Origin: Candidatus Pacearchaeota archaeon
Lineage (GTDB): Archaea; Nanobdellota; Nanobdellia; Pacearchaeales; GW2011-AR1
Assembly (NCBI GenBank): GCA_018304145.1
Contig: JAGVWU010000005.1
Location: forward strand, 1-34,937
Direction: 5' to 3'
DNA: 34,937 bases
The notes under the pieces were generated by a model. It searched no databases. It was not told the DNA's origin and saw only the letters and a program-made list of their open reading frames with translations. Position 1 is the stretch's first letter; each line of letters starts with the position of its first letter. Position numbers and translations under genes: made by a program. Below, in pieces: positions 79-29,294 of this stretch.

Positions 79-552
79 TTATGACGTAGTGTACTTAACA
101 GCCTCACCAGAGTATTTCTTCTTAATAGTAAACCAAATCCTATTTGATTCTTTATCAAAAAATGGAGTTGGATAAAAATCGGGCTTAACATAAAGGTCTT
201 TGATTGTCCTATCTATTTTTCTTAGTCTCCTAATTAATCTAAGTGAATAAGATTTTAAACTTTCGATATTAAAATCATCTAATTTTATTTCCGAGAATTG
301 TGGGTCTTTAATTTTTCTCTCAAGATGCTTTAGAAATATATCTAAGAAAAAAGACTTCTCTTTTAGAGATTTGTTTTTTAGAATACTAATTATTTTACTT
401 TTATCTTTCGATGCTGATGGGATAGCCAAATTAATCTCTTTAGAGTATTTGCTATAGAAATTTTCGATATTTGCATCCAAATCATTAGAAGGTTTTATTC
501 CCAACTCTTTCCAAAAGCCCTTGCCATTTAAGTCAATAATATCCATAACCAA
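79..552 (-). CDS. hypothetical protein, last gene of the MoxR/VWA operon
   Basis: ORF of 157 aa, co-directional and 32 bp downstream of the 180-aa gene. Confidence 0.6.
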   Translation of the reverse strand: MVMDIIDLNGKGFWKELGIKPSNDLDANIENFYSKYSKEINLAIPSASKDKSKIISILKNKSLKEKSFFLDIFLKHLERKIKDPQFSEIKLDDFNIESLKSYSLRLIRRLRKIDRTIKDLYVKPDFYPTPFFDKESNRIWFTIKKKYSGEAVKYTTS

Positions 553-584
553 CCAATAAAACCCTCGTATAAAGAATTAACGCT

Positions 585-1127
585 TTATCTTAAAAACTCA
601 AAAACATAATCTTGATTCTCAATTCGTTTAGCAAGTGATAAACCTAATCCTTTTAGAGCTACTTCAGTGCCTTCGCTACCACTTCTTCCAAATACAACAC
701 TGGCTAAACTATTGTCTTTCCCGAAGCAGAAGATATGAGAAAGTTGCGATTTATCTCCTAAACTATATGCATGATCCAAGCCCATTTCTATTAATTTGCT
801 ATATCTTTCTGAAGTGAGATCTTTAACATCATATCTCCTAAATGGAATTTTTTCTCCATTTTCGGTATATGTTCCTTCTCGATCTATCACAACAACATCT
901 TTCCCACCAAATCTAACTACAATTAAATCATCTTTTCTGTATAATCTAACCTGTCCGATAGACTTACTTGTTTCTGGATCAACAATTTCTTCTTTAGTTA
1001 TATCTCTAGTACCAGGTCTTAAAATAAAATCAGTGTAAATCAATCCAATTCTTTCTACAGGATTTCCTAACTTTAGGATTTGAGTTTTATTCTCTTCTCT
1101 ATCAGTTCTGATTAAGTATCTGTTCAT
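585..1127 (-). CDS. hypothetical 180-aa protein resembling the N-terminal domain of the operon's AAA+ protein
   Basis: ORF 2 bp from the VWA gene; GLDHAYSL...FCFGKDNSLASVVFGRSGS aligns by eye with GFSHGYKL...SFYERDGGQRAVLVTGDSP of the AAA+ N-domain. Confidence 0.7.
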   Translation of the reverse strand: MNRYLIRTDREENKTQILKLGNPVERIGLIYTDFILRPGTRDITKEEIVDPETSKSIGQVRLYRKDDLIVVRFGGKDVVVIDREGTYTENGEKIPFRRYDVKDLTSERYSKLIEMGLDHAYSLGDKSQLSHIFCFGKDNSLASVVFGRSGSEGTEVALKGLGLSLAKRIENQDYVFEFLR

Positions 1128-1129
1128 TT

Positions 1130-2926
1130 TTATTTTGCTATTCCATATGTTTTAAATAATCTAAACATTTCTCCAGGGAGTTCATGTAATTTGTCTCTTT
1201 CCACAATCACATAATGATCATTACCAATATCTCCAGTAAGATGTTTTGCGTATTTTTCAAACTCTTTACCTAACACAATTAAGAATGGATGAATTTTTCT
1301 TTTGTATAACTCTTGTATAACTGGTCTTGGATCTCCTCCAAGATTAGCATCACCATCGGTAATTATTGTTATTCCTTTTGGTTGTTCTAGTTGTCGATCC
1401 AATAAACCTGCAACAACCTCTAAGCTTGGAGCAAGAGCAGTTCCATCATGACTTCTTCTCACAGATAAGATTTTTCTAGCAACAGATTCACTATATTTCT
1501 CCGTAAAATCTTTTAGTACATATAAATCTCCTGAAAAAGCAAATAATCCAAAAGGATAATCTGAGTCACCCAAAGCTTCTCCTTGAATAAGCAGACTTGA
1601 TTTAATTCCGTCTATAATATTAAAGTACTCAGGGTCTGTTGAAGGACTTATATCTGCCAATACTGCCCAAGCAGGTCTTTGTTGGTTTTGAGTGTCTTTG
1701 ATAAAAACTCTTCTTTCTCTTCTTACGCCAGTAACTTTAGATTCTAGTTCTCCCTGCATAAATTCTTCATAATCTAATTCTGCCCCTTCAAAATCTCTTT
1801 TAACACCATAATGTCTTAATTTTAGTTGCCTAAATATTCTACGCGTACTTTCTATTTCTCCAGCATATTGCAATTTCCTTTTCTGTAAAAGTTCTTGTAT
1901 TTTTTTATCGGTACAATTTGCAACTGGGCAAATATCTATTCCATGTTTTTCAGTGAGATCAGTGTAAAGAGCATTTCTGTCTCTTTTGTATAACTCTTCC
2001 TTTCCCCGTTCATCTAAAGTAGATTCTTCGTTTTCATCTTTCCCACTACCTTTTTTATCTTTAGAGTCTTTGTCTGGTTCATATAATTTTTTTCCATCAC
2101 GAGCTTTTTCAGATAGTTGTTTTGGTTTTTTATCATTAGGATCTCTCCCTTCTCTTGGTTGAGTTTGACCTTGATAGCCTTGTTGTGGACTACCTTGAGT
2201 TCTTGAATTATCTCCCGTATTATATCTCGGAGGCAATCTACTTATTTTTTGAGTTATGTCGAAATTGTCCTTTAATCTTCTATATATTTGTTTAACTACT
2301 TCGGGGTCCATTTGTATTGAACCGGATGATTTAGCAAGTCTAACAGCTTCTTCTAGCAATTCTTTTTTCTCTTTAGGAACTGATTCCACAGTTTCGCCGA
2401 TTAATGTTTGTTGTAAAAATTGTTCTCTGAAAGCATCTAGTTCAGACATTCTCACAATACTCGGTCTAAGATATTTTGTTGCAGGATTAAGAGTTTCCTT
2501 ATAAAATCTGTCTACACCCGATAACTGTCTTCTTCGAGAATCAATTCTATGGTCTTTTACAACATTATCAATCCAGCCAGCCAAAGCAGGATTTTCTGTT
2601 AGCTCCGCGTAATTTCTTTGATGATATTCTTGAACAGCATTTGAACCAGTTTCTGCAAAAGAACTTGGATCTTTTTCAAAATACTCACCATATTCTACAA
2701 TGTGATCAGACTCGTGAGCAGTAAAGTTAGCTAATGCTAATTCATTGTCTCTTTCAGAACCAAAAATACTTTCTTCTTCTGGTAAAAAAACTGAATGTCC
2801 ATCTGTTGCAGGAGTCATTCCTTTTTTTGCAACTATCGGATGTCTGGTTAATGCTTCCTCACCAACACGAAAATCTATAATCTGTTCCAATTTTCTAGAA
2901 ACAGATTCTGTTTTTACAGATGTCAT
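1130..2926 (-). CDS. VWA-domain protein, NorD/CobT-like, with N-terminal HExxH and a central charged linker
   Basis: MIDAS-like ADISPSTD; TDGDAN; HESDH (HExxH); ENPALAGWIDNVVKDHRID as in NorD/CobT relatives. Confidence 0.8.
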   Translation of the reverse strand: MTSVKTESVSRKLEQIIDFRVGEEALTRHPIVAKKGMTPATDGHSVFLPEEESIFGSERDNELALANFTAHESDHIVEYGEYFEKDPSSFAETGSNAVQEYHQRNYAELTENPALAGWIDNVVKDHRIDSRRRQLSGVDRFYKETLNPATKYLRPSIVRMSELDAFREQFLQQTLIGETVESVPKEKKELLEEAVRLAKSSGSIQMDPEVVKQIYRRLKDNFDITQKISRLPPRYNTGDNSRTQGSPQQGYQGQTQPREGRDPNDKKPKQLSEKARDGKKLYEPDKDSKDKKGSGKDENEESTLDERGKEELYKRDRNALYTDLTEKHGIDICPVANCTDKKIQELLQKRKLQYAGEIESTRRIFRQLKLRHYGVKRDFEGAELDYEEFMQGELESKVTGVRRERRVFIKDTQNQQRPAWAVLADISPSTDPEYFNIIDGIKSSLLIQGEALGDSDYPFGLFAFSGDLYVLKDFTEKYSESVARKILSVRRSHDGTALAPSLEVVAGLLDRQLEQPKGITIITDGDANLGGDPRPVIQELYKRKIHPFLIVLGKEFEKYAKHLTGDIGNDHYVIVERDKLHELPGEMFRLFKTYGIAK

Positions 2927-4033
2927 TTACTTACCTCCTTCTTTGCCCCTTATATCAATTGACCACGGATCAATAAAATCTGTTGGTAAGTCTGGAACTT
3001 CTTGAGATTTTTCTTTTGGTTTTTCTTTTATGGATTTTTTTTCTTCCTCTGATGACTTCTCTTCAGTAGGATTATCCTTACTATAATCTCTCCTTCCAAA
3101 TAACCATTGACCTGCTTCATAAATTGCAGGTAATCCTAACCTAACAGGATAGACAAGAGGATGCAAACTGTCAAGAATAATGAATCCTGGTAATGAATTC
3201 AAAAAAAATCTTCCTGCCATTGTAGCACCAACTGCATCTTCATCAATTTTCTTTCCTCTTTTATGTCGTCTTATAAGACTTGAAGCACCTAATAGTTGAG
3301 GAATTATAGCCCCCCCTAAAAGTCCTAACCAATAATTAAATTTAGTCTGTGTTGGAAACTCATCTGATAATTTTAAAACTTCAATTTTATGATTTGTCGG
3401 GTTAACATAAATTGATTTTCTAAATTCATCTTCTGGTGAATTAATTACATCATCTATGCCCAATTCATTTTCATCAACATTTCTATCCGCAGCCCCATTA
3501 TTAGTTCTACCGCCATAAAAACCTAAACCAGTTCCATAATTCCAAAAATCCCCTTTAGCAGCATATCCTGATAACCATTCCTCTTTTAAACGAAGATGTT
3601 TTTGGAATAATTTTAAATCAGAATTCATAGATTCATAAGCCCGAAGAAATTTCACCATAGATTCGTCTATCGCAGGTTTTTTTAATTTTCCATTGTTATC
3701 CAATAACTTTGCATCAATTTCTTTGACTGTTTGTCCCAATATTTTTTCTAACTCTGCAACATCTTTACTATCTATTCTTCCATCACGAGCTAGGGTTATA
3801 TAAGTTCTTTGATAAGCATTATATTCTTTTACTGCGTCTTTATAAAAATCATCTCCTTGTTGTGTTAGCTTTTCTGACATTGTCGCAACAGCTTCTGATT
3901 TTTTAAGAGGAGAAGTCATTTCTTGAGAATAAGCTGATTCAGTTAATCCAATACTACCTGCATAAATCGCAGTTGATACTAATCCCACAGCAATTCCTTT
4001 CTTAGCTTTTCTAACTAAATTCGATAAACTCAT
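2927..4033 (-). CDS. membrane protein with signal peptide, ectodomain, TM segments and cytoplasmic tail ending DFIDPWSIDIRGKEGGK
   Basis: Hydrophobic N-terminus GIAVGLVSTAIYAGSIGL...AYSQE; hydrophobic C-terminal third; charged K/E tail. Confidence 0.7.
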   Translation of the reverse strand: MSLSNLVRKAKKGIAVGLVSTAIYAGSIGLTESAYSQEMTSPLKKSEAVATMSEKLTQQGDDFYKDAVKEYNAYQRTYITLARDGRIDSKDVAELEKILGQTVKEIDAKLLDNNGKLKKPAIDESMVKFLRAYESMNSDLKLFQKHLRLKEEWLSGYAAKGDFWNYGTGLGFYGGRTNNGAADRNVDENELGIDDVINSPEDEFRKSIYVNPTNHKIEVLKLSDEFPTQTKFNYWLGLLGGAIIPQLLGASSLIRRHKRGKKIDEDAVGATMAGRFFLNSLPGFIILDSLHPLVYPVRLGLPAIYEAGQWLFGRRDYSKDNPTEEKSSEEEKKSIKEKPKEKSQEVPDLPTDFIDPWSIDIRGKEGGK

Positions 4034-5088
4034 TATCTTTTCCCTCCCGAATTTAAATTATTAACGTTAATATCCCAAGGATTAATTATTTCTTGTTCAG
4101 GATCAGGTTCATTTATAACTTGTTTTGGTGCCTCATCTTTCTTTTTTTCCTGCTCCTTCTTTTTATCTGCCTTATCAACACGATACATAATGTATCCTAT
4201 GCCAGAGCCAGCCACCGCCAGAATTGCAGCCATTGTTAATCCAATCTCCCATCCATCTCCAACTCCGGGATGGACAAATTCATCTATTCTCTCACCAAAT
4301 CCAGACCAAGGAACATATCTTCTAGTCTTGAGTTCTTGCTGAACTTCTTTTTTTATTACATCATCTAATTCTTCAAGAGCTTTTGTTAATGGTTTTCCAA
4401 CTTCTCCGTTATAAGGATTTGTGTTATATCCTGATTTCGACTCTCCTTCCAATTGGTTTTTTTTAGCAAATTCTGCAAAATCAGCAAACATTTTTCCTGG
4501 ATAAGGTACTCTTTCTTTGGTATCTGTATCTACTAATTCTTCTCTTACATCTGAAGCAAAAAAATCAACATCTCTCTTAAATCTGGAGCCATTGTTATAA
4601 TGCAAATTTCCGTACATTGCCTGCAAATATTCATAATCTTTTATTGCTTCAACTAAAGATGTTTTTGCTTCCTTAGCTCTCTCTGGAGATAAATATCCTC
4701 TTTGTAATTCAGACTCAAGAACAGAAACTCCCTTTACTATATTATCCTGACTACCTTTCATGTAATTAGCCATAGTTGAAACATACTCGGATAAATTTTT
4801 AACTTCTATAGAACCATATTTCGGATGAGTTATTACAAATGCTCCATTATTTTCCCTTCGGGTAAGAACTTTTCCTTGTTTTTTCGCTTCTTCTATGTCT
4901 GCCTTTAATCTCTCATTAGTATCATATTTTTGTGGGTTTGCTGCCCTATCTTGAGAGGGAGTATTACTTTCTTGAGCGTAAGATTGATTGATTCCTCCAA
5001 AAACAGATAATCCCAAAGCTCCAGCTACTAAAATATTTCTGACTGTTTTTCCAACTGAGTTTTTTTTTGATTTCATTTTAAACTCCAT
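4033..5088 (-). CDS. membrane protein with signal peptide, ectodomain, single TM and cytoplasmic tail ending EIINPWDINVNNLNSGGKR
   Basis: Signal NILVAGALGLSVFGGINQSYAQE; TM IGLTMAAILAVAGSGIGYIMY; KKKEQEKKKDE tail. Confidence 0.7.
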   Translation of the reverse strand: MEFKMKSKKNSVGKTVRNILVAGALGLSVFGGINQSYAQESNTPSQDRAANPQKYDTNERLKADIEEAKKQGKVLTRRENNGAFVITHPKYGSIEVKNLSEYVSTMANYMKGSQDNIVKGVSVLESELQRGYLSPERAKEAKTSLVEAIKDYEYLQAMYGNLHYNNGSRFKRDVDFFASDVREELVDTDTKERVPYPGKMFADFAEFAKKNQLEGESKSGYNTNPYNGEVGKPLTKALEELDDVIKKEVQQELKTRRYVPWSGFGERIDEFVHPGVGDGWEIGLTMAAILAVAGSGIGYIMYRVDKADKKKEQEKKKDEAPKQVINEPDPEQEIINPWDINVNNLNSGGKR

Positions 5089-6511
5089 ATTTGTCTAATA
5101 TTTTCATAAGTTTACTATGAAGTCTCCCATTACCAGAGTCTACATCATTTTCATAAGTAGTTATCGGATTAACAACACTTTCCTCGAAAAGACTTCTTAA
5201 TGGAATTTCCGTTCCACTCATTATTCTTTGTGCTACTTCTACAGGTCCCTTGAGACCCAAATCTTTTGAAAAACTTCTTGATTCATCCCTCATTTCAGCA
5301 GTAACTTTTGTAATCAATTCAGCAGTTTCATAATCTAAACCTGGTGCACGAGCAAGTAAAATATCTGTAGTATTTTCTCTTGTAGGATAACCCATTTTTA
5401 TTTGAGAAAATCTTTGCAAAAGAGCATCATTGAGTTCATTAGTCGTATATGCACTATGGAAATTTCCAGTAGATACTAACCTAAAGTTAGGATGAGCAGT
5501 TAGAGTTTCGTGACCGAATTGAGTAATTAATGGTAGCTCTCCTGTTTCTAAAAACATATTTAATCCAGTAAGCTCATCTTGAGGAATCGGAGGCATTTCT
5601 TCTAAAACATATAAACCCCCATGAATCGCAGCTAATGTTAATGAGCCTGGTGAAAAAGTAGGTCCCTCTGCTGCTGGAACGAATTTACCAATCGCTGTGC
5701 TCAGTCTGAAAGATGAACTCCCAGTATCAAAGTAATATGGCAAACCTCTCGCATTTGCATAATCTCTTGCTAAAACAGTTTTACCATTACCTGTAGGTCC
5801 ATTAAGAATGACTGGTCTTAAACCACTATCAAGATATTCAAATAATCTGTCTTTTTCTCCATTCTGATCTTGATAAGCAAAAACTTTTTGTAGCATTCTT
5901 GGTTTAAATCTTTCTTTAACAAATCTAGCAAATGCTCCTTGCTCTTCAACAACTTTTGTTGTGATTAAAGCTTCCCTTTGAGGTATAGCTTTTTTTACTG
6001 TTTTTCCTTCCAGATCCTTATTTATCTTATCAAAAAGAGCAACAGGAAGAAAAGGCATAAAAGGAGAATCGCCTGTTACCAGCACTGCTCTTTGACCTCC
6101 ATCTCTTTCATAGAAACTTAATGAGCCTGTTTCTTCAGGACTTCTTAATTTGTATCCATGAGAGAATCCAGATTCTTTTTGTTTTTCAGCTTCTCCAACA
6201 GCCAAATCTTCTAATCCAACTCTTCCTATGTCATACTGTCTGGTTCCTGTTTTTAATCTAAGTCTGTTATTACCCTCTATAACTAAATTTACCGTTGAAC
6301 CATTGTGCGATAACATAACTCTATTTCGTTCAGGTAAATATGAACTAATCATTCCAGCTAAACCATTTCCATCTGTAACAATTTTATAACGAATAGGAAT
6401 TGTAACTTCATCTGCTAATTCAGGGTATTGTATTTCAGCTTGTGGTTTTCTGCTATCTAGGTCTATAACAACTGCTTTCTTATCCTGAAAGTCAACCATA
6501 TATTTAGCCAT
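5078..6511 (-). CDS. AAA+ ATPase of the MoxR/CbbQ/NorQ type with a ~200-aa N-terminal extension
   Basis: Walker A GPTGNGKT, Walker B GGLYVLEEMPP, sensor-like RLVSTGNFHSAY, arginine-finger region LLQRFSQI. Confidence 0.87.
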   Translation of the reverse strand: MAKYMVDFQDKKAVVIDLDSRKPQAEIQYPELADEVTIPIRYKIVTDGNGLAGMISSYLPERNRVMLSHNGSTVNLVIEGNNRLRLKTGTRQYDIGRVGLEDLAVGEAEKQKESGFSHGYKLRSPEETGSLSFYERDGGQRAVLVTGDSPFMPFLPVALFDKINKDLEGKTVKKAIPQREALITTKVVEEQGAFARFVKERFKPRMLQKVFAYQDQNGEKDRLFEYLDSGLRPVILNGPTGNGKTVLARDYANARGLPYYFDTGSSSFRLSTAIGKFVPAAEGPTFSPGSLTLAAIHGGLYVLEEMPPIPQDELTGLNMFLETGELPLITQFGHETLTAHPNFRLVSTGNFHSAYTTNELNDALLQRFSQIKMGYPTRENTTDILLARAPGLDYETAELITKVTAEMRDESRSFSKDLGLKGPVEVAQRIMSGTEIPLRSLFEESVVNPITTYENDVDSGNGRLHSKLMKILDKYGV

Positions 6512-6512
6512 T

Positions 6513-6659
6513 TTATTCAGCTTCCTCCAAAACCTTAATATTAATTTCTACAATCGTACTGGGTCTTAATTCGTCTCTTAATAGCTTTGGAATAACAATT
6601 ATAGAATTCTCTCCATGTTTTGCAATTCTTTTTCTTATCGTATATTCTTTCTGTTTCAT
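6513..6659 (-). CDS. 48-aa AbrB/SpoVT-like swapped-hairpin DNA-binding protein (not in the ORF track)
   Basis: Manual translation MKQKEYTIRKRIAKHGENSIIVIPKLLRDELRPSTIVEINIKVLEEAE; stop lies 1 bp from the AAA+ start. Confidence 0.6.
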   Translation of the reverse strand: MKQKEYTIRKRIAKHGENSIIVIPKLLRDELRPSTIVEINIKVLEEAE

Positions 6660-6739
6660 TTCAAGTTTATTACAATTTTTATCTAAGAAAATTGTGGAAA
6701 TGGACTATTTAAACCTTTCTACTTGTAACTACTTAATAA

Positions 6740-6919
6740 TTACACTAATAGCTGTAAACTTGTTCCGTCAGGATAAATTTTACATTTTCCTTCCCGTACT
6801 CCTTTGAGCTTTTTGTTAATCAAATCTCCAACCATTAAAACAGCATCAACAGTTTTATCAATTTCTTTCTTAGTAGAATTTAAACCTTTTTCTGTCTTAA
6901 CTGTAATAATTATTTTCAT
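6740..6919 (-). CDS. small hypothetical protein (start reassigned to internal Met: MKIIITVKTEKG)
   Basis: ORF 6740..6934 in track; internal Met looks a better start. Confidence 0.4.
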   Translation of the reverse strand: MKIIITVKTEKGLNSTKKEIDKTVDAVLMVGDLINKKLKGVREGKCKIYPDGTSLQLLV

Positions 6920-6961
6920 AACAATAAAAATCAATTCTAATATTTAAAGATTGCACGAGTT

Positions 6962-7567
6962 TTACCAAATAGTCATTCCGTCTTCAATCTCTTCATTATT
7001 ATTATTTTCTTCAGAGTTATCTTCTTCTTTGTCCCTATAGTCTTCCATTTCACATAACTGACCAACTCTCGGAGTATTAATTAAATAGGGACTAGGTCCG
7101 CGTCTATTTTGTGTTAATCCTTTCTCTCTGTCTTGTTCTTCGGCATAATTTAATTCCTGCTGATAAAACTTCCTATCTTCATCTGTTGTTGCTAATCTTA
7201 GATTCCTTAAAATGTTTTTATGAATCCTAGGAACAAACTTCCTTTTTCTTTTCTTGTAGCTGGTATAAGTTGGTTCTATTTTATAGTATCTATCATCACA
7301 TATGAACTTTAGAAACAAAAAGAAATGAGGTGATGTTGGAGTTCTGCCAAGACACATGTAATGTCCTTGCCCAAAATTTTCATGAATAAAATATACAAAT
7401 TCAGAGGTAGTTCTTATTGGTCCATTACCTACTGTTTCAAATATCTTTCTGCTGTCTTCTTTCTGAATCTCATGCAAGGTTTTCCAGTCTATTCTTATTT
7501 CATGATTTCTTTGATACTTAGTAGGGACCTCCGTCTTTCTTTTTATCTGAATCCATATTTCATTCAT
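6962..7567 (-). CDS. hypothetical protein
   Basis: 201-aa ORF overlapping the upstream 104-aa ORF by 8 bp. Confidence 0.55.
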   Translation of the reverse strand: MNEIWIQIKRKTEVPTKYQRNHEIRIDWKTLHEIQKEDSRKIFETVGNGPIRTTSEFVYFIHENFGQGHYMCLGRTPTSPHFFLFLKFICDDRYYKIEPTYTSYKKRKRKFVPRIHKNILRNLRLATTDEDRKFYQQELNYAEEQDREKGLTQNRRGPSPYLINTPRVGQLCEMEDYRDKEEDNSEENNNNEEIEDGMTIW

Positions 7568-7874
7568 CTCTTACTCTCCCGAACTCTTTAGCTCTTTCGA
7601 ATAATTCATTAGTCTTTCTTATCTTATTATCGTATCCTTTGATAGTTGCCAATTCCAACAACTCTTTAGCATATTGTTTTAGTTTTTCATTCTTAGACTT
7701 TTTGATTACATAGTCTATTATTAATAATCTAATAGAAGTAGAAAACCTTCCAAGATTATGTGTACAATGAATTTCTATGTCCCTGTCTTTTAGAATAAGC
7801 TGTTTGAATTCTTCGATTATTGGAAAGAACTTGTCGTTATATATTATGTGGTCTATTTCATGTCCTTGTGGCAT
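7560..7874 (-). CDS. hypothetical protein
   Basis: 104-aa ORF translationally coupled to 6962..7567. Confidence 0.5.
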   Translation of the reverse strand: MPQGHEIDHIIYNDKFFPIIEEFKQLILKDRDIEIHCTHNLGRFSTSIRLLIIDYVIKKSKNEKLKQYAKELLELATIKGYDNKIRKTNELFERAKEFGRVRDE

Positions 7875-8028
7875 TTTATTTAATTTTCTGTTTTATCGTC
7901 GGTTTAATTAAAATACTAACCTTACTATTCTTAATAAAGGTTGTCCGTCGAGAATTGTAATTAATAAGTTATCACAAGTAACCTATTACCTCCGATAGCT
8001 TTTTAACCACTTATTACATAATCTTATT

Positions 8029-8298
8029 ATGAAAAAATCAGATAGGGCAGATAATTATGTTTCTGAACTTGACTTAGAGATTTTAAAAGCCTTAGATAAG
8101 AAAAGTGGTTATGGTGTAGTTGAAATAAGAGAAAAGCTTAAAGTTAATCCTCGTACAGCAAGAAGACATCTCATCAGATTACAAAAATTAAAACTAATAG
8201 AACGAAAAAGAGTTGATAAAACAAACAGAGCAGAACTTAGCATTACAGATTATGGTAAACAATTGTTAGAGCTATTTAATAAAATCTTAAAGAATTAA
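8029..8298 (+). CDS. winged-helix transcriptional regulator (MarR/ArsR-like)
   Basis: LDLEILKALDKKSGYGVVEIREKLKVNPRTARRHLIRLQKLKLIERKRV. Confidence 0.75.
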   Translation: MKKSDRADNYVSELDLEILKALDKKSGYGVVEIREKLKVNPRTARRHLIRLQKLKLIERKRVDKTNRAELSITDYGKQLLELFNKILKN

Positions 8299-9497
8299 TT
8301 TTTCTCAACTTTTACTATTTTAGCTATATCTTGCACCTGTTGCATTTCTATCATATTGGATTTTATAATATTCGCAAGTTCGGCTATCTTTTTCTCAAGC
8401 TCTTTATTTTTTATATCACTGGCAAGTTTTATAGTTTCAATTTCATGTTTCAGTCCGCCCATCTCATTCTGCTCCACTTCCTTATCTAACTCCTCACTTA
8501 AATCTCTACGCCTAGCATATCTCCGAATCATTGGACTTCCGAATTGCCAGCCGTAGCGATACGAAAATTGGTGGTCATTCTTTATGATGTAAATATAATG
8601 ACTACAAGATGCATGCCTTAAAGCATGATAATGAATACTTCTTCCGATTGTTCTTTTTCCTAATCTGTGGAGAAACTTTCTCATAAGAGGATAACCTTTT
8701 GTAAATACAGGGTCAGTTGGTTTTGCTCCTTCTCTTAACCTTTCATTATAAAATTCTGTTATAATCTTGGTGCTATGTTTCCAGTAGCAGCTTATAATTC
8801 TTCCTTTAGTTTTTGAATACTCTTCTCGCACTCTCATCTTAATAAAATTTTCATCTTTCTTAGGAAAAATTACATCTTCCATTCTAATGTTATGAAATTC
8901 CTCAGCTCTACATCCGGTATCAAATAAAACATCAACAAAGTATCTTTCTTCGTTAGTTTTACAACCATCCAATATTTTTTCTACTTCATTTTCCTGAGGA
9001 GCATATACCTCTTTTACCTTCCCGCCCATTTTGATTTTTAATATCTTAATGAATTTGTATGCTTTCTCATCTAACTTCCAGTTCAAATAAAGTATCAAAG
9101 TATTCCTAATTGAGATTTTCTTGTTCTTAGCATAAGGTCTTTTGCACTTTACTGTGGTTATTATTTCTTCTCCATTAACTGTTTTTTCTTCCCTCTTTAG
9201 CCTAGAGTATCCAAGTTCATCTTTTACCATTGCTTCATGCAATCTCCTAATATCCTCTTCCTTTAGTTTTGACACTGGTTTTTTAAAAAATTCCAGAGCT
9301 ATTTTCATATCGCTTAAATAAACTGATAAACCCCCATCCTGAACGACATTGCCTGTTAATTCTCCCATTTGTAATGCCCTCATCCAGTCTTCCTGTATAT
9401 CTTTCTTGTCTTTTGCATCAATCTTCCATTTAGAAACCGCAGCTATCTTTTTCTTCATATTTATTATTCTAAGCGGTATTTTATCTGTTTCTGACAT
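8295..9497 (-). CDS. tyrosine recombinase/integrase with C-terminal coiled coil
   Basis: FDTGCRAEEFHNIR (catalytic R), HYHALRHASCSHYI (HxxR box), GWQFGSPMIRRYARR (catalytic Y region). Confidence 0.85.
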   Translation of the reverse strand: MSETDKIPLRIINMKKKIAAVSKWKIDAKDKKDIQEDWMRALQMGELTGNVVQDGGLSVYLSDMKIALEFFKKPVSKLKEEDIRRLHEAMVKDELGYSRLKREEKTVNGEEIITTVKCKRPYAKNKKISIRNTLILYLNWKLDEKAYKFIKILKIKMGGKVKEVYAPQENEVEKILDGCKTNEERYFVDVLFDTGCRAEEFHNIRMEDVIFPKKDENFIKMRVREEYSKTKGRIISCYWKHSTKIITEFYNERLREGAKPTDPVFTKGYPLMRKFLHRLGKRTIGRSIHYHALRHASCSHYIYIIKNDHQFSYRYGWQFGSPMIRRYARRRDLSEELDKEVEQNEMGGLKHEIETIKLASDIKNKELEKKIAELANIIKSNMIEMQQVQDIAKIVKVEKN

Positions 9498-9500
9498 TTT

Positions 9501-9532
9501 AAGTAATAGGTATATTAGGTATCCTATTACTT
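9501..9532. repeat. perfect inverted repeat AAGTAATAGG-N12-CCTATTACTT directly upstream of the integrase
   Basis: Read directly; 10-bp arms, 12-bp spacer. Confidence 0.85.
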
Positions 9533-9545
9533 AATGTACATTAAG
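9530..9545. repeat. perfect 16-bp palindrome CTTAATGTACATTAAG
   Basis: Read directly; abuts the 9501-9532 inverted repeat. Confidence 0.8.
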
Positions 9546-9578
9546 GTATTTATAAGCTTTTCTACGTTAGAATAAATT

Positions 9579-9929
9579 ATGGGACAGTTTTGGGCTCGAA
9601 TTTATAAAATTTATTTTGAGCAAATATTATTAATGATTGATAAAATAGAAAGTTTCACTAACAACACTAGTTATGAAGATTTTTCAAAGGATGTGAATCT
9701 TATTGATGCAACTATAATGCGTTTGCAGGTTATTGGTGAAAATATGTCAAATATCCCTTACTCATTAAGAAAACAACATAAATCAATACGCTGGAAAACT
9801 TTTCTTAATATGCGAAACTTTTTTTCACACAAGTATTCGGCAATAAACCATGAATTGCTCTGGCAGATTGTTAAAAATAGAATACCTGTTTTAAAAGAAG
9901 AAATAACAAAGATTATGCAAACAATTTAA
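9579..9929 (+). CDS. HepT-like (DUF86) HEPN-domain protein, no MNT partner adjacent
   Basis: RNFFSHKY matches the HEPN RX4HXY motif; VDATIMRLQVIGENMSNIP-like HepT core. Confidence 0.8.
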   Translation: MGQFWARIYKIYFEQILLMIDKIESFTNNTSYEDFSKDVNLIDATIMRLQVIGENMSNIPYSLRKQHKSIRWKTFLNMRNFFSHKYSAINHELLWQIVKNRIPVLKEEITKIMQTI

Positions 9930-10020
9930 GATACTGAAAATCCTTTTGCTCGTCGAACCTTCAGGTTCAAATTCCTGAGACATTATTAAATGAATATTCG
10001 CTTTGGGAGAATATTTTAAT

Positions 10021-10092
10021 AGCCCCGCCAGGATTCGAACCTGGGTTACAAGCTCCAGAAGCTCGTAGACTTGACCGCTATCTTACAGGGCT
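10021..10092 (-). tRNA. tRNA-Gln(CTG), 72 nt, no intron
   Basis: Acceptor AGCCCTG/CGGGGCT, T-arm CCAGG-TTCGAAT-CCTGG, anticodon loop TTCTGGA closed by CGAGC/GCTTG. Confidence 0.88.
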
Positions 10093-10220
10093 GTTTTTTC
10101 ATCAATGAACTTACTATTTAATATATCAAAAATAACTTCAAATCATTTATAAAATTATCCTATTGTTGCTTAAACGCACATCATACAAATTCTTAAAAAC
10201 CAGTTATTTTTATTTAAACT

Positions 10221-10925
10221 ATGACCAGCATCATTGGAATTAAATGTGAAAAAGGTCTTGAAGGAGTGGTTGTTGTTTCAGATTTTAGTGGTACTCAAAC
10301 TAGGCTAATTAATGATGGAATTGATACTGCTCACTATGAAAGAAGAAGAACAGCATCAAAAAAATTATATGTAGACCCAAAAAGAGAAGTTGTAATAGGA
10401 ACTTCTGGACAGACTAATCTTCATGGATATTCTAATTTTTTATCAAAAATACTAAAAGATAGTTCTTTAATAAGAAAGGCAATAAGAAGAACTGTTAAAA
10501 CTCATCATCTCAAAGAACTTAAGAAATTAAATATGCAAATAGCTCGATCAAACCAAGACTCTAATCCTCCGTTAATAAGAATTCTTATTGCAACAAGATA
10601 CAATAATGATTCAAGATTATTTCAATCTGATGAAAATGGTTATCTTTTAGAAGTTCCTTATGTTCTTTTAGGCTCAGGTGCAGGTTTAATGTATGAGTAT
10701 ATGTCCAGAAATCACAAAGTAATTCCAAGTGAAACTTCAATAACTGAAGGAATAGATTTAGGATTTAGATGTTTGCACGAAGCTTTTAGAGATCCTTTTA
10801 CAGGAGGCAGAGATTTAGTTGTTGTAACAAAAACAAGAATTGATGAATTAGGAAAAGAAATTAGGGGTGCTATAAATTATGCGAGAAGAATTGCAATTCA
10901 AGAAGCTATCAATCGTTATAAATAA
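10221..10925 (+). CDS. proteasome beta-subunit/HslV-like Ntn hydrolase without propeptide
   Basis: M-TSIIGIKCEKG...VVSD...ASKKLY...LLGSGAGLMYEYM...GRDLVVVTK follows the proteasome beta T1/D17/K33 layout. Confidence 0.78.
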   Translation: MTSIIGIKCEKGLEGVVVVSDFSGTQTRLINDGIDTAHYERRRTASKKLYVDPKREVVIGTSGQTNLHGYSNFLSKILKDSSLIRKAIRRTVKTHHLKELKKLNMQIARSNQDSNPPLIRILIATRYNNDSRLFQSDENGYLLEVPYVLLGSGAGLMYEYMSRNHKVIPSETSITEGIDLGFRCLHEAFRDPFTGGRDLVVVTKTRIDELGKEIRGAINYARRIAIQEAINRYK

Positions 10926-11018
10926 TTAAAATTACAAATATACAATCAATAACTTTATATATTTATAAGTTTTATATTATAAATGTTAAAATTCCCTTAA
11001 TTGGGAAAGAATTTCAAC

Positions 11019-11069
11019 ATGGAAGGTAGAAAGAATTTTTATAAAATTCTTAGAACCATTCCATTTTAA
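11019..11069 (+). other. possible 16-aa leader ORF MEGRKNFYKILRTIPF
   Basis: ATG...TAA ending 13 bp before the 11083 ATG. Confidence 0.3.
11031..11051 (+). promoter_or_regulatory. perfect inverted repeat AAGAATTTT-TAT-AAAATTCTT in the leader of the EF-like gene
   Basis: Read directly; 9-bp arms. Confidence 0.6.
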
Positions 11070-11082
11070 ACCAAAACAAAAA

Positions 11083-11334
11083 ATGGAAGGCAAACAAATA
11101 GGTGTAATTTTTAATTTTTTTGAAAAAGTCGGTGTAATTGCAATTGAACTTACAGACAAATTAAAAGTCGGAGAGACTATAAGGATTGTTGGAGGAGACA
11201 AAGATTTTACAGAAATTGTTGACAGTATGCAGATTGATGGAAAAAACGTATCATCTGCAAAAAAAGGCGACCAAGTCGGAATAAAAATCAGCGACAAAGT
11301 TCATAAAGGATATAGAGTTTTTAAGGTAAAATAA
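11083..11334 (+). CDS. stand-alone translation elongation factor-like (EF-Tu domain 2-like) protein
   Basis: GVIAIELTDKLKVGETIRIVGGDKDFTEIVDSMQIDGKNVSSAKKGDQVGIKI. Confidence 0.8.
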   Translation: MEGKQIGVIFNFFEKVGVIAIELTDKLKVGETIRIVGGDKDFTEIVDSMQIDGKNVSSAKKGDQVGIKISDKVHKGYRVFKVK

Positions 11335-11354
11335 TTCTAAATGTTCAATTAAAT

Positions 11355-11598: not shown

Positions 11599-12873
11599 AT
11601 GAGTAAGAAATTTGTCATATGTTTATCATTGATCGGTATCTTATTTTTTATTAATCTGGTAAACGCAGCAGAATTTGATGTTGAAATAGAATTGAATAAT
11701 TTTTATTATGGGGATGAAATCGAAGGTCTTGTAGAAATAACTGGAGATATAAGCGATATAGACTATATATCTTATCAATGGAATGTATGGTATACTGAAA
11801 GAGATGAACCACATATTTTTTATTGTCATCCTGAAGGGGATGACCAATGTGATTATATTTCTGATAATAAACTAAAACACACATTCAAAATAAATTCAAC
11901 TTATTTCACAGATTTAGGTGATGAAATTTTTGGAAGAGTTAAAATATTTACTAAATCTAGAAAGGAATTATTATTCTTAGGAGACTCAAGAACTCTTTCA
12001 AGTCGCCCATTAAAAATTGTTGAGTTAACTCTTGATGATAATAGTTACAAGCATGGAGCAACAATTAATCTTACTTCCGACAATTTTCAAAGGTATGGAT
12101 ATGTTGGAAGTTTAATAAAAAAGAAGAGTGTTCATCTACAATGCTGTGAGGGTCCTTACTGTTCTCCAGAGGATAATGATTTTTGTTCAGTTAGTAGTTT
12201 TGATAATGATAATCTTTCTTGTTCTGGAACTGCTTGGGGATACCTTGGAAAACAAATGATTGCTTGTAATCTTCGTGATTATAGTGGTTATTCCGAAACT
12301 AAAGAAATTTGGTTTGATATAGTTGAGGGAAAAATACCTTCTACCACTAATGAAGAAATCTCCCGTGAAGGAGTAAGATACGAAAAAGATTTGCTAAAAG
12401 CTCTTGAGGATAAAGATTTTGCAAAAAATCTTATGAAAGATGAAGACTTTATTGGTCTAGAAATTATAGATGGCAAAGTTTGGGCTAATGTTTTTATAAG
12501 ATTGAGAGATAAATCAAATATAGAGGATAATTATGAGGAAAACAATCTTTCTGGAGATGAGTGGTTTAGCTTAAAATCTGATGAAATTCTCTCTTCTCTT
12601 TCTAATGACGAATTTCTTTTTGTAGATAAACTTTCTAATGGATTTTCTGGAAAAATTTCTCTTGATGGATTTTTGAAGTTAAGAAAAAATGATGATATTA
12701 CTCTTATAAGTTGGCCCAAATGGAGATTAAAACTTCTTGATGGTTCGGGTCCCTTAGTAAGAAATGATTCTTATTATCTTGCTTACACTATTTCTATAAT
12801 TTTTATTATTGGATTCTTAATACTTATGATCTTTCTATTAAAATCAAAAAAGAAAAGGCACAAGAAAAAATAA
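11599..12873 (+). CDS. secreted/membrane-anchored protein with C-terminal TM
   Basis: Signal FVICLSLIGILFFINLVNAAE; C-terminal YTISIIFIIGFLILMIFLLKSKKKRHKKK. Confidence 0.75.
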   Translation: MSKKFVICLSLIGILFFINLVNAAEFDVEIELNNFYYGDEIEGLVEITGDISDIDYISYQWNVWYTERDEPHIFYCHPEGDDQCDYISDNKLKHTFKINSTYFTDLGDEIFGRVKIFTKSRKELLFLGDSRTLSSRPLKIVELTLDDNSYKHGATINLTSDNFQRYGYVGSLIKKKSVHLQCCEGPYCSPEDNDFCSVSSFDNDNLSCSGTAWGYLGKQMIACNLRDYSGYSETKEIWFDIVEGKIPSTTNEEISREGVRYEKDLLKALEDKDFAKNLMKDEDFIGLEIIDGKVWANVFIRLRDKSNIEDNYEENNLSGDEWFSLKSDEILSSLSNDEFLFVDKLSNGFSGKISLDGFLKLRKNDDITLISWPKWRLKLLDGSGPLVRNDSYYLAYTISIIFIIGFLILMIFLLKSKKKRHKKK

Positions 12874-13134: not shown

Positions 13135-13986
13135 TTATAATTTAATAGATTTTTGGGAATCTATTATTAATCTTATAAATAAAAAAATCATCTTATTTGT
13201 CATCATTTTGGTTTGCTCTTTTCTCTTTTGTGAGTAAGCAGAATAAAACATCATCATAGACATATTCTTAAGCAGTTTTTCCACATAATTTTGAATTTCA
13301 GAGAAGGGAAAATAAATTCCTTCTAAAAATAGGAAGACTTTTCCATCTATTTCTCTAGAATTTTTCTTTAATGGAATTCCAATTCTTACCTCTGTTCTGT
13401 TATTATATTTTCCAATCCATTTAATTATGTTTTTTTGTTCTTCTTCTAATCTTTCTTTAGTTGCTCTAATTTTTCTCCTTCTTAATTGTTTTTTTATTTT
13501 ATTTAGATTTAACATATAATTATATTCTCCGGTGGAATATACTTCTAATTCTTGGAACATAATCATGATATCTGTTAATAATTGCTTATATTTGCTTGCT
13601 TCTTTTTCATTTCTAATCAATTTTAATAAGTTATAATGCACTTTTTTACTTCTCGGAGTATAAATATAATATCCCCTTACTCTAGTATCATATTTTATAC
13701 CAAAATTTTCTTTTATAAATCTTTTATTTTTAGGAGTTTTTCCTATAAAGAAAACTTTATAATTGTTTATTTTTTTTCTTAATTCTTTTTCAATTCCTTG
13801 CCATACAGTATTTTTTACCCCTACATTAATTAATTCTTTTTCTATCTCTTTTATTGTCCAAATATTCTGCATAAAAATAATCCCTTCTTTAAATTGTCCT
13901 CTTTTTTCCTTTTGTATTATTTCCTCAATTTGCCAATATTTGCCATTTTTAAGCCTAGATTCCTCATATTTTTTTATTATATCCAT
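13135..13986 (-). CDS. hypothetical protein
   Basis: 283-aa ORF, Lys/Ile rich, no recognised domain. Confidence 0.55.
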   Translation of the reverse strand: MDIIKKYEESRLKNGKYWQIEEIIQKEKRGQFKEGIIFMQNIWTIKEIEKELINVGVKNTVWQGIEKELRKKINNYKVFFIGKTPKNKRFIKENFGIKYDTRVRGYYIYTPRSKKVHYNLLKLIRNEKEASKYKQLLTDIMIMFQELEVYSTGEYNYMLNLNKIKKQLRRRKIRATKERLEEEQKNIIKWIGKYNNRTEVRIGIPLKKNSREIDGKVFLFLEGIYFPFSEIQNYVEKLLKNMSMMMFYSAYSQKRKEQTKMMTNKMIFLFIRLIIDSQKSIKL

Positions 13987-14045
13987 AAAATAGGTAACTA
14001 TATGCAGTTTAAAAAAGTTATCTATTACAAACTATTTAACGAGTT

Positions 14046-14159
14046 ATGGAATATCAAGATAATAAAGACATTGCCGAAGAAATAATCTCGAAACTCAAGG
14101 AACTTAATGAGATATTAGACAATTTAATCAGGAGGTCTAAAGAAAATGGGGATGACTAA
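14046..14159 (+). CDS. short coiled-coil-like protein (37 aa) overlapping the RHH gene
   Basis: Manual translation MEYQDNKDIAEEIISKLKELNEILDNLIRRSKENGDD; overlaps the next ATG by 14 bp. Confidence 0.4.
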   Translation: MEYQDNKDIAEEIISKLKELNEILDNLIRRSKENGDD

Positions 14160-14388
14160 GCAAGGACATTTTTATGCAACTGATAAAGAAAAGGAAATGC
14201 TCAAAAATAAAGCAAATGAAAGAAAAATGACTTTATCTGATTTTTGCAGAGAAAAGATATTTGAGGGCATAGAAATAGATAAGTTTTCTAAAGTAATGGA
14301 TGTTATTGCTGATAAATTCGTAGATAAAATTTCTGAGAGAATAATAAAAGAATTGATTAGGCAGATTAAGAAAGAATCTAAAAAATAA
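14146..14388 (+). CDS. ribbon-helix-helix, MobC/NikA-like accessory protein
   Basis: GHFYATDKEKEMLKNKANERKMTLSDFCREKIF. Confidence 0.6.
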   Translation: MGMTKQGHFYATDKEKEMLKNKANERKMTLSDFCREKIFEGIEIDKFSKVMDVIADKFVDKISERIIKELIRQIKKESKK

Positions 14389-14550
14389 GAAACATACAAG
14401 ATTTTTACAGATTGTTTTTAATGTGATTTTTCAATAATGATTTATGATAAAAAGATTTCATAAATATTCTATATTGCAAATAAGAAAAATTATCGAGATT
14501 TTTCAATCAGTTCCTCTTCTTATTTTTTCAAATAAACAAATGAAAGGAGT

Positions 14551-14585
14551 CGCGGATTTTGGTAAGCGTAGCTCCAAAATCCGCG
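14551..14585 (+). repeat. hairpin CGCGGATTTTGG-TAAGCGTAGCT-CCAAAATCCGCG
   Basis: Perfect 12-bp inverted repeat with 11-nt loop, 7 bp upstream of the Rep ATG. Confidence 0.9.
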
Positions 14586-14592
14586 TGTCAAC

Positions 14593-15618
14593 ATGAGTTC
14601 TATGCAATATACAAAACAAATGCTTATCGAGGAATATCCTCTAATTCAGCGAGAAGTGGAAAAGCTAAAATCCAAACTCTCTTTTTGCGGAACTCCAATA
14701 TTAATTAAAGTCGGATGCAGGAAATGTAAAAATGAGGGCATTGAGAACTTTCTTAAGACAATAAAAAAAGATTTTCATTGCTTAATTAGATTATGTTTTG
14801 AAACTAATTGTATCCTGGAAAGATTTGCCTCAACAATGGAACAATTAAGGAGTATTAAAAGGCTAAGTGGTCTAAGAAGGTTATGGCATTTTGCTATTGG
14901 TTTCTCATTACTTGATTTAGAAGAGTTTCAAAACAATTTTGCAATTCATAAAAAAAGATACGAGGTTACTATGAGAAATTATTTCTCTAAAGCAAGAAAA
15001 GAAAATGTTGTTGTAGAATACATTAGGGTTCTTGATTTTTCTTTTGATAAAATTGAAAATGGAAAGATTTATCCACATTATCATTATGGGGCAATTCCAT
15101 TAAAATCATCTGTTAGAAGAAGTTCAATGATTAAATTAAAGGCAATCGAGAAAAATATGAACAAAAGAATGAAACTTAATTATAACTTTCATTTACAATC
15201 ATTCGGCTATAAATCTAAAGAAGCAATATTTAATTATTTAGCAAAGCGTGCCTGTGGTTTATATAAATTTAATGAAGATAAAAATAAGGATTGGGCTAGT
15301 GGAAAAGGCAAGTTAAAAGAGGATATAGAAAATGGAAAATATTTTGGATTAAAGGATGTGATTAATGAAGAACAATATATTAATCACTTTTACAAAAAAA
15401 GGCATTATGTCACCTCCGCAGGCATCCCCCATGGTTCCATTCCTACGGATAATGAACAACACAAAGAAGGATGTATTTGTGAAAAACATGGCAAATTAAC
15501 ACCGAAAGATGTTTTTATTGTCAGGGAAATAGATTATACTCCACCACCACCAGATCCTAGACTAAAAATGGTAGAAAATGACGAGCCTTTTATAGTGAAG
15601 GTTATAAAAATAAATTGA
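14593..15618 (+). CDS. HUH-type rolling-circle replication initiator (Rep)
   Basis: KIYPHYHYGAIPL (HxH motif) followed by KEAIFNYLAKRACGLYKF (candidate catalytic Tyr helix). Confidence 0.7.
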   Translation: MSSMQYTKQMLIEEYPLIQREVEKLKSKLSFCGTPILIKVGCRKCKNEGIENFLKTIKKDFHCLIRLCFETNCILERFASTMEQLRSIKRLSGLRRLWHFAIGFSLLDLEEFQNNFAIHKKRYEVTMRNYFSKARKENVVVEYIRVLDFSFDKIENGKIYPHYHYGAIPLKSSVRRSSMIKLKAIEKNMNKRMKLNYNFHLQSFGYKSKEAIFNYLAKRACGLYKFNEDKNKDWASGKGKLKEDIENGKYFGLKDVINEEQYINHFYKKRHYVTSAGIPHGSIPTDNEQHKEGCICEKHGKLTPKDVFIVREIDYTPPPPDPRLKMVENDEPFIVKVIKIN

Positions 15619-15629
15619 AAAATGAGAAA

Positions 15630-15851
15630 ATGACAGAATTAAAATTTCCCTACGAGAGATGTGATAAATGTAAGAAGGTTGTTAATGTAGTTGAAGAAGG
15701 GTTATTTGATTTTATATCTCCAGAAAAAAATCATCTTAAAGGTGATTTTTGTGGGGATTGCATGCAAGAAATGGTTCCAGAATATAAAGAATTTGTTGAA
15801 GAATTTAGAGAATACAAAAGACAACAAAAAATTAATGGGAATAAAGCTTAG
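15630..15851 (+). CDS. small zinc-ribbon protein
   Basis: CDKCKK...FCGDCMQ; track start 15615 is TTG, ATG at 15630 preferred. Confidence 0.55.
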   Translation: MTELKFPYERCDKCKKVVNVVEEGLFDFISPEKNHLKGDFCGDCMQEMVPEYKEFVEEFREYKRQQKINGNKA

Positions 15852-15923
15852 TTTTAGATTCTTATAATGCCCTTAAAAATAGAGTATAGAAGAATATATA
15901 AAAAAAGAAATTCATTAAATTAA

Positions 15924-16490
15924 ATGCCACAATACTATTTAGATATTGAAACAACGGGTTTAAATCCTTTAGCAGATAAAATAGTTACTATTCAATATCA
16001 AGAATTAGATAGAACAACTGGAGAGGCTATAGGAGATTTAAATATCTTAAGAGCATGGGAATCTTCTGAGAAAGAAATTATTGAGCAATTTATTTTAGGC
16101 AGTAGGGTTTTGGATCCCTATCCTTTTAGTTTTGTTCCAATAGGATTTAACTTAAATTTTGAGCATAACTTCCTAAAAACTAGATCTGAAAAAAATGAAT
16201 TACCTTCAATTGATATTCTTAGTCATCCATTCTTAGATTTAAGGATAATCGGTGTTATAATGAACAAAGGTGAATTCAAGGGATCTGGATTAGATAAGCT
16301 CACTGGAAAAGAAAGGAATGGAAGTCAAATTCCTACATGGTATCAAAATAAAGAATTTGATAAAATTATAGAATATATTAAAATGGAAACCAGAGAATTT
16401 ATAAAATTTAATGCTTGGATATATAAGAGGCTTCCAAATCTATTAACGCAATTTAGAGAAGAAAACAATATAAATAAAAAAGAATTCTAA
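15924..16490 (+). CDS. DEDD-family 3'-5' exonuclease-like (DnaQ/PolB-exo-like)
   Basis: YYLDIETTGLNP, GFNLNFEHNFL, C-terminal conserved acidic region. Confidence 0.75.
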   Translation: MPQYYLDIETTGLNPLADKIVTIQYQELDRTTGEAIGDLNILRAWESSEKEIIEQFILGSRVLDPYPFSFVPIGFNLNFEHNFLKTRSEKNELPSIDILSHPFLDLRIIGVIMNKGEFKGSGLDKLTGKERNGSQIPTWYQNKEFDKIIEYIKMETREFIKFNAWIYKRLPNLLTQFREENNINKKEF

Positions 16491-16549
16491 ATAATATTAT
16501 AGATGATGTTTAAGGATAAGTTTTTATATATACTTATTTTATAATTTTT

Positions 16550-18451: not shown

Positions 18452-18452
18452 A

Positions 18453-23158: not shown

Positions 23159-23704
23159 ATGGTACCTCTCTGGTTGCTTCTTAAAAATATTAAATATAAT
23201 AAAATGATAAGAACATACATAAAAATTTTTTTATTTCTCAGTTCGTATAGCCCTTTATTTATAATTTTAGCAATAAAAAATTATTCATATTTATATTTAG
23301 TTTATTTTTTTATTGGTTTAGTTGCCATATCAAATCTTGTTTTATTTTTTATATTGTTTGAATCTAAAAAAATGAGTGGAGATTATTATAAAATAAATAA
23401 AATTGAAGATAAATCTGCTCAATTTTTGGAGTATATAATTGCATATATTATCCCCTTTTTAGGTTTTAACCTTTTACAAATAACGGACGTGCTTATATTA
23501 GGAATACTCTTTTTTATAATAGCATCAATATATATTAATTCAGATTTAGTTTATATGAATCCTCTCTTAAACTTATTCAGATATAAGTTATATAAGGTAA
23601 CAACTGATAACAAGGAGTATATGATTATCTCAAAAGAATATATGGAAAAAATAAAAAATAAAAAAATTTTCATTTTTTCTAATGGGGTAGGAAGGACTTG
23701 TTAA
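23159..23704 (+). CDS. multi-TM membrane protein, candidate Kiwa KwaA
   Basis: About 4 TM segments, 1 bp upstream of a KwaB/DUF4868-like gene. Confidence 0.55.
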   Translation: MVPLWLLLKNIKYNKMIRTYIKIFLFLSSYSPLFIILAIKNYSYLYLVYFFIGLVAISNLVLFFILFESKKMSGDYYKINKIEDKSAQFLEYIIAYIIPFLGFNLLQITDVLILGILFFIIASIYINSDLVYMNPLLNLFRYKLYKVTTDNKEYMIISKEYMEKIKNKKIFIFSNGVGRTC

Positions 23705-23705
23705 G

Positions 23706-29150: not shown

Positions 29151-29294
29151 ATGGCACAAAAAAATGTAACTTTGAGTTTAGATGAAAAGACCTATGAAGA
29201 CTATAAAGACTTTTGCAAAAAAAATGCAATAGCTTTATCAAGGAGTATAGAAGTATTTATGGAAGCGAAAATGAAAAAGGAGGAGAAAAGATGA
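29151..29294 (+). CDS. 47-aa ribbon-helix-helix protein (not in the ORF track), coupled to the methyltransferase
   Basis: MAQKNVTLSLDEKTYEDYKDFCKKNAIALSRSIEVFMEAKMKKEEKR; ATGA overlap with 29291. Confidence 0.75.
   Translation: MAQKNVTLSLDEKTYEDYKDFCKKNAIALSRSIEVFMEAKMKKEEKR

Follow-up and report, generated by a model that had tools for sequence, protein, structure and literature searches.

A candidate archaeal AAA+/VWA remodelling machine with unrelated operon partners that mostly share a C-terminal tag

The window, that is, the whole stretch of DNA analysed here, is one entire contig (34,937 bp) of a MAG of 1.15 Mb in 70 contigs, so the left end of the operon may be cut. Seven ORFs lie tightly packed on the minus strand between positions 79 and 6659, and all features of this cluster given below are on that strand. 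In the order of transcription they encode an AbrB-like peptide, an AAA+ ATPase, two partner proteins, a VWA protein, an accessory protein and a 157-aa product, with junctions of 1, −11, −1, 0, 2 and 32 bp. The preliminary description of this DNA had listed seven packed minus-strand genes, and all of these ORFs were found, with gaps from −11 to 32 bp. A putative TATA-box-like stretch, AAAGGTTTAAATAG, was recognised by eye ahead of the operon (6705..6718). The first gene (6513..6659) encodes a 48-aa peptide, possibly a regulator, whose assignment as AbrB/MazE-like is weak (PF04014, E = 0.008, below the cut-off). The last ORF (79..552), an orphan with a TTG start, follows the 32-bp gap and has no counterpart in the two related loci described next; its membership of the operon is doubtful. 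The contig also carries a type III restriction system, Kiwa genes, a further methyltransferase and a tyrosine integrase (8295-9497) near a tRNA-Gln gene (10020-10092).

The genes for the AAA+ ATPase, the VWA protein and the 180-aa accessory protein occur in the same order in two further DPANN MAGs, G447 (JACOYJ010000022.1, a Candidatus Pacearchaeota MAG) and G571. G447 was found by a family-wide search and G571 by a class-wide search with a VWA profile, while the relatives of the window's MAG that were searched first had yielded generic AAA+ proteins alone. The AAA+, VWA and accessory proteins of the window are 65, 51 and 47% identical to those of G447, and 32, 27 and 25% identical to those of G571. 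The G447 locus (L027) consists of a partner gene (6633-7313), the AAA+ gene (7310-8737), a second partner gene (8746-9573), the VWA gene (9576-11354), a third partner gene (to 11808) and the accessory gene (11810-12352); it sits among housekeeping genes and no integrase lies beside it. In G571 (L037, minus strand) two partner genes (4164-5669 and 3764-4204) precede the AAA+ (2269-3777), VWA (602-2269) and accessory (47-595) genes. In 1,984 genome searches within the phylum, made with varied queries and covering many genomes repeatedly, the system was seen in G447, G571 and the window genome only, and the three known members are all in draft MAGs. Their AAA+ proteins form one clade (support 99/98), apart from ordinary NorQ/NorD-like or MoxR proteins. 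Most other matches were such ordinary pairs, with neither the extra N-terminal domain described below nor tagged neighbours; G109, G077, G367, G173, G432 and G119 were set aside as ordinary NorQ/NorD-like or MoxR pairs having no tagged partners, and G012 as a lone GvpN-like ATPase. Between the window and G447, dN/dS was 0.13 for the AAA+, 0.27 for the VWA and 0.42 for the accessory gene, with dS near saturation; judged by these ratios, the three core genes are under purifying selection. The set of genes for which a neighbourhood survey had been suggested holds together across genomes, though the partner bodies are exchanged.

The AAA+ ATPase (477 aa; 5078..6511) is of the MoxR/midasin type (Pfam AAA_5, E = 2e-11). 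With a profile of the three members, the closest solved AAA+ domains by sequence were those of midasin (6e-37); NorQ (5e-16) and CbbQ structures were also matched. A GvpN identity was rejected at 57.4 bits against an equivalog cut-off of 266.8. Walker A, GPTGNGKT (5777..5800), is invariant in the three members except for T/S, and N350 and R367 are invariant, which provides the Walker A, sensor 1 and Arg finger of a MoxR-like protein. The Walker B region (5597..5605) reads LEE in 3/3 members, Glu replacing Asp, and aligns with LDE of midasin. About 200 residues stand ahead of the AAA+ module in all three proteins, unlike NorQ, which is a single module with no extra N-domain. In the window, residues 1-175 (5987..6511) form this family-specific domain, which is not present in the ordinary NorQ-type proteins of relatives. 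A profile-profile comparison with hhalign (87%, E = 4e-6) showed the domain to be homologous to the accessory protein (585..1127), and the earlier designation of the 180-aa product as "AAA-N-like" is thereby supported.

The VWA protein (598 aa; 1130..2926; PF00092, E = 1e-8) has no signal-like or transmembrane (TM) segment in its sequence. Its three-member profile matched NorD (3e-12) over NorD residues 394-577, which span the finger region and the MIDAS, and, as in NorD, the pore finger precedes the VWA domain. The stretch matching the NorD region with the pore-inserted finger (NorD residues 403-448; PMC13036017) lies at 1703..1852. The MIDAS residues DISPS...T...D, from D425 to D524 (1355..1654), are kept in 3/3 members, with DxTxS in G447, so the AAA+ gene has the adjacent VWA partner with the DxSxS/T/D residues that marks MoxR-type pairs. 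In the N-terminal region an HExxH-like HESDH (2702..2716) is HEADH in G447 and missing in G571. When the AAA+ and VWA proteins were modelled with AlphaFold2 from two-row alignments, the pLDDT was about 31, too low for the models to be of use. The cluster belongs to the broad MoxR/VWA kind; the pairing proposed in the preliminary description stands, the AAA+ matching midasin and NorQ and the VWA protein matching NorD including its pore-finger region.

The two genes between the AAA+ and VWA genes encode partner 1 (351 aa; 4033..5088) and partner 2 (368 aa; 2927..4033). Both have a signal-like N-terminus, a predicted extracytoplasmic body and a charged tail with the tag. Partner 1 has a C-terminal TM segment (residues 282-300; 4189..4245; hydropathy 1.82), and partner 2 has one or more hydrophobic segments, including a TM segment at residues 236-254 (3272..3328; hydropathy 1.66). 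According to the positive-inside rule the charged tails of both are predicted to be cytosolic, and the topology parity of partner 2 is less sure because of a second hydrophobic stretch. These features agree with the earlier identification of two signal-peptide membrane proteins; of the gene identities proposed there along with the AAA+ and VWA genes, the AbrB-like one is the weak call. Neither window partner received a name from any family library searched, and no meaningful solved-structure match was obtained for these two or for the 275-aa partner of G447. In the latter, a nucleotidyltransferase-like GS...RDLDL motif was noticed by eye alone.

When compared pairwise, the window partners had a stretch in common at the extreme C-terminus, IINPWDINV in partner 1 and FIDPWSIDI in partner 2. 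The tag is PWDINV within INPWDINVNNLNSGGKR (4063..4080) in the former and PWSIDI within IDPWSIDIRGKEGGK (2951..2968) in the latter, and its consensus is [IVL]-[NDE]-P-W-x-[IV]-x-[IV]. Two G447 partners end in FINPWDIKIPRLEGKRK, which is listed as a tag peptide together with FIDPWSIDIRGKEGGK, and in FVDPWKVQIPRIDKDG; the third has a weaker RIWSIDIPKIPERK. The 146-aa partner of G571 ends in LENPWKDHKKIYYGGKKNGKI, and the 501-aa partner has NIWDL alone. [NDE]PW was present in the last 45 residues of 5/8 partner genes and of 1/187 other ORFs (p = 1.5e-7), and with the window pair, the source of the motif, left out, in 3/5 against 1/187 (p = 3e-5). Shuffle tests were strong for the tails of the window pair and of two G447 proteins, moderate for the third G447 protein and the G571 146-aa protein, and not significant for the G571 501-aa protein. 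After the last 30 residues were removed, no relationship was detected between the partner bodies, which belong to membrane proteins in the window and in G571 and to soluble ones in G447. In the whole G447 genome the strict pattern matched just the two operon genes; in the window genome it matched the two operon genes and two internal, non-C-terminal sites, in ScpA and in a glycosyltransferase. The ScpA site, LNPWDIDI, was judged to be chance or convergence. As a C-terminal tail the strict tag is thus confined to the operon in both genomes and looks private to it. The doubtful 157-aa ORF has a possible further tag, RIWFTIKKK, which was left out of the tag counts. That otherwise unrelated partners mostly end in the same tag suggests that the machine recognises exchangeable clients by it.

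Like NorQ/NorD, the window system combines an AAA+ protein with a VWA protein that has a MIDAS and a pore-finger region; unlike NorQ/NorD, it has an extra AAA+ N-domain, a stand-alone homologue of that domain and tagged operon partners. At the three loci, none of the operon or partner proteins matched the client genes norB/norC, and because of this and the extra N-domain the cluster is not NorQD proper. CbbQ/CbbO, the Rubisco activase, is of the same AAA+/VWA kind, but the window cluster has no Rubisco, and we know of no tagged partners of CbbQ/CbbO. Midasin (Rea1/Mdn1), too, works by means of a VWA/MIDAS domain that bears a finger (PMC13036017), but it is a single giant chain with several AAA domains and acts on pre-60S ribosomes. 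The MoxR-vWA ternary conflict systems (PMC7159879) share with the cluster an AAA+/vWA pair and variable associated proteins, but there the variable effectors form fusion proteins with the vWA or with the third component. No VMAP, iSTAND, FtsH or beta-propeller was found in the window system with Pfam and PADLOC, a scan that did not include the VMAP-C profile itself; because no third component was recognised, the cluster is not such a ternary system as published. Its partner bodies vary, but none was recognised as an effector. The ATV proteins p618/p892 form an archaeal MoxR/VWA pair to which several structural proteins bind, but the available part of that report (PMC4124505) does not mention a common C-terminal tag, and the window has no evidence of a virus. 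The secretion-like arCOG01314 loci (PMC5898192) unite within a single operon a MoxR ATPase (MoxR/GvpN), a vWA protein and surface proteins of the membrane, but their own vWA/Ig proteins are secreted, whereas the window VWA protein has no signal-like or TM segment, and the surface proteins of the window are unrelated orphans. No named system matched the cluster in full. In the literature searched, which covered few subscription journals, no such tag pattern was described for MoxR/VWA pairs.

Cryo-EM of NorQD shows the VWA finger inserted into the pore of the AAA+ protein, while the C-terminus of NorD lies on the post-sensor-1 loop (PMC13036017). The MIDAS residues of NorQD are required for the client but not for the binding of NorQ, and the acidic client residues D220/E222 are implicated (PMC9976466). 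By homology to NorQD, the AAA+ ring would carry the VWA protein on top, with its finger in the pore. Partners from the same operon would dock through their short common C-terminal tag, probably on the VWA/MIDAS face or on the fold shared by the AAA+ N-domain and the accessory protein; the D, N or E before PW of the tag could serve the MIDAS. ATP hydrolysis would then remodel or assemble the docked partners. In the window the clients would be the two membrane-anchored partners, whose tagged tails are predicted to lie in the cytosol and whose bodies would be extracytoplasmic. A motor in the cytosol could thereby work on two surface proteins or be held in place by them.

We give a probability of roughly 0.55 to this reading, in which an AAA+/VWA remodelling complex like NorQD has its own exchangeable clients, and these may dock by a private C-terminal tag. 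Its wider form, a modular archaeal machine in which unrelated clients have been swapped between lineages and one private C-terminal tag kept, we consider an even bet. The points seen are the conserved core, the unrelated partner bodies, the operon-confined tag and the NorD-type finger region with its MIDAS; from these, physical binding, recognition of the tag and remodelling of clients are what we infer. Against the reading stand the small number of members, three from draft MAGs, the moderate tag of the G571 146-aa partner, the weak one of the third G447 partner and the one that is not significant in the G571 501-aa partner. The Walker B Asp to Glu change in all three members also counts against it, as it makes the strength of the ATPase uncertain. 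The preliminary description had taken the membrane proteins as possible clients or anchors, and this idea is strengthened, though indirectly, because the tag is common to the window pair and to non-homologous partners in a second genome. Its membrane-linked, cell-surface or secretion part is not general, because the tagged partners of G447 are soluble.

The exchange of partner bodies around a fixed core also resembles that of effectors in the ternary systems (PMC7159879), and the restriction, Kiwa and methyltransferase genes lie on the same contig; in a MoxR-vWA-type conflict (defence) system, the tagged partners would be effectors or sensors restrained by the AAA+/VWA pair and freed on infection. 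We regard this as unlikely, as the VMAP, iSTAND, FtsH or beta-propeller third components were not recognised, none of the partners could be assigned to a known family of effectors or defence proteins, and the G447 locus sits among housekeeping genes. It is quite improbable that the partners are anchors or scaffolds, with the tag binding the core or joining the accessory protein, and that the real NorQD-like client is encoded elsewhere. The AAA+ N-domain and the accessory protein, being one fold family, could be the tag receptor in such a case, and what known MoxR/VWA pairs act upon are not tagged proteins but large enzymes, NOR for example (PMC9976466); however, no candidate metalloenzyme client was recognised in the three loci, and the soluble G447 partners would make poor membrane anchors.

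Very unlikely, in our estimate, is that the cluster serves as assembly chaperone for a mobile element or a virus, integrated next to the tRNA-Gln gene, with the tagged partners as virion or envelope proteins. The tyrosine integrase does lie near tRNA-Gln, and ATV p618 (MoxR) and p892 (VWA) act in tail development (PMC4124505). However, several queries found no relatives in IMG/VR, by scans that rely on short conserved peptides and miss distant relatives, and the operon proteins had no virion-family match. No second attachment site was found for the window, and no integrase adjoins the G447 cluster. The end of tRNA-Gln was rejected as an attachment site, its other exact copy being a second tRNA-Gln gene. 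Phage records gave generic CobS/NorQ-like AAA matches only and no VWA.

Client choice by MoxR/VWA pairs is still poorly understood; in the well-known cases each pair serves a single large, dedicated client (NOR, Rubisco). A plug-in client system has not, in the papers searched, been described for such pairs. If the tag-dependent remodelling complex is real, a short tag on unrelated partners would allow client recognition to be tested using a peptide some 15 residues long, and the tag would be a sequence signature for finding further clients. It would also be a first point of entry to the hypothetical surface proteins that DPANN archaea encode.

Two of the loci examined in the search for relatives carry ordinary DPANN NorQ/NorD-like operons, at L016 11305-13473 (minus strand) and L038 8148-9065 (plus strand). 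Each has a separate HExxH protein (HEAAH, HEAGH) placed between the AAA+ and VWA proteins, which recalls the HESDH motif in the N-terminal region of the window's VWA protein. The ScpA-like proteins of L026 (a further locus; 4196-5170, minus strand) and L038 (6519-7283, minus strand) contain NPWDIDI/DPWDIDI, which resembles the C-terminal tag of the operon; the position is internal, and the likeness is probably due to chance or convergence. At L027, the G447 locus with a related core, an SRP54-like GTPase (13689-16820, minus strand) is apparently interrupted at its P-loop by an intein, the split read by eye as GLYGAGK|CVHG...VHN|TTTIGKL.

The window also encodes a tyrosine integrase (8295-9497, minus strand), by score not the chromosomal XerA, and a HepT-like gene sits between it and a tRNA-Gln (10020-10092, minus strand). 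This stretch is a candidate integrated element with its second end beyond the contig. A divergent proteasome-subunit-like protein (10221-10925, plus strand) scored 28 bits against a 224-bit cut-off for the archaeal beta subunit. The 341-aa orphan with the HxH motif PHYHYG (14593-15618, plus strand), which had no match in Pfam or NCBIfam, could be a rolling-circle replication initiator.

A Kiwa-like pair, KwaA then KwaB, occupies 23159-24665 (plus strand); KwaA falls below its cut-off (74 versus 100 bits), and KwaB, at 91 bits, passes the cut-off of the Pfam KwaB profile. The host of this pair is an archaeal MAG. Type III restriction-modification genes, along with an additional methyltransferase of type II, lie at 16550-21392 and 29213-30895 (plus strand); Kiwa and these genes make up a defence island on the contig.
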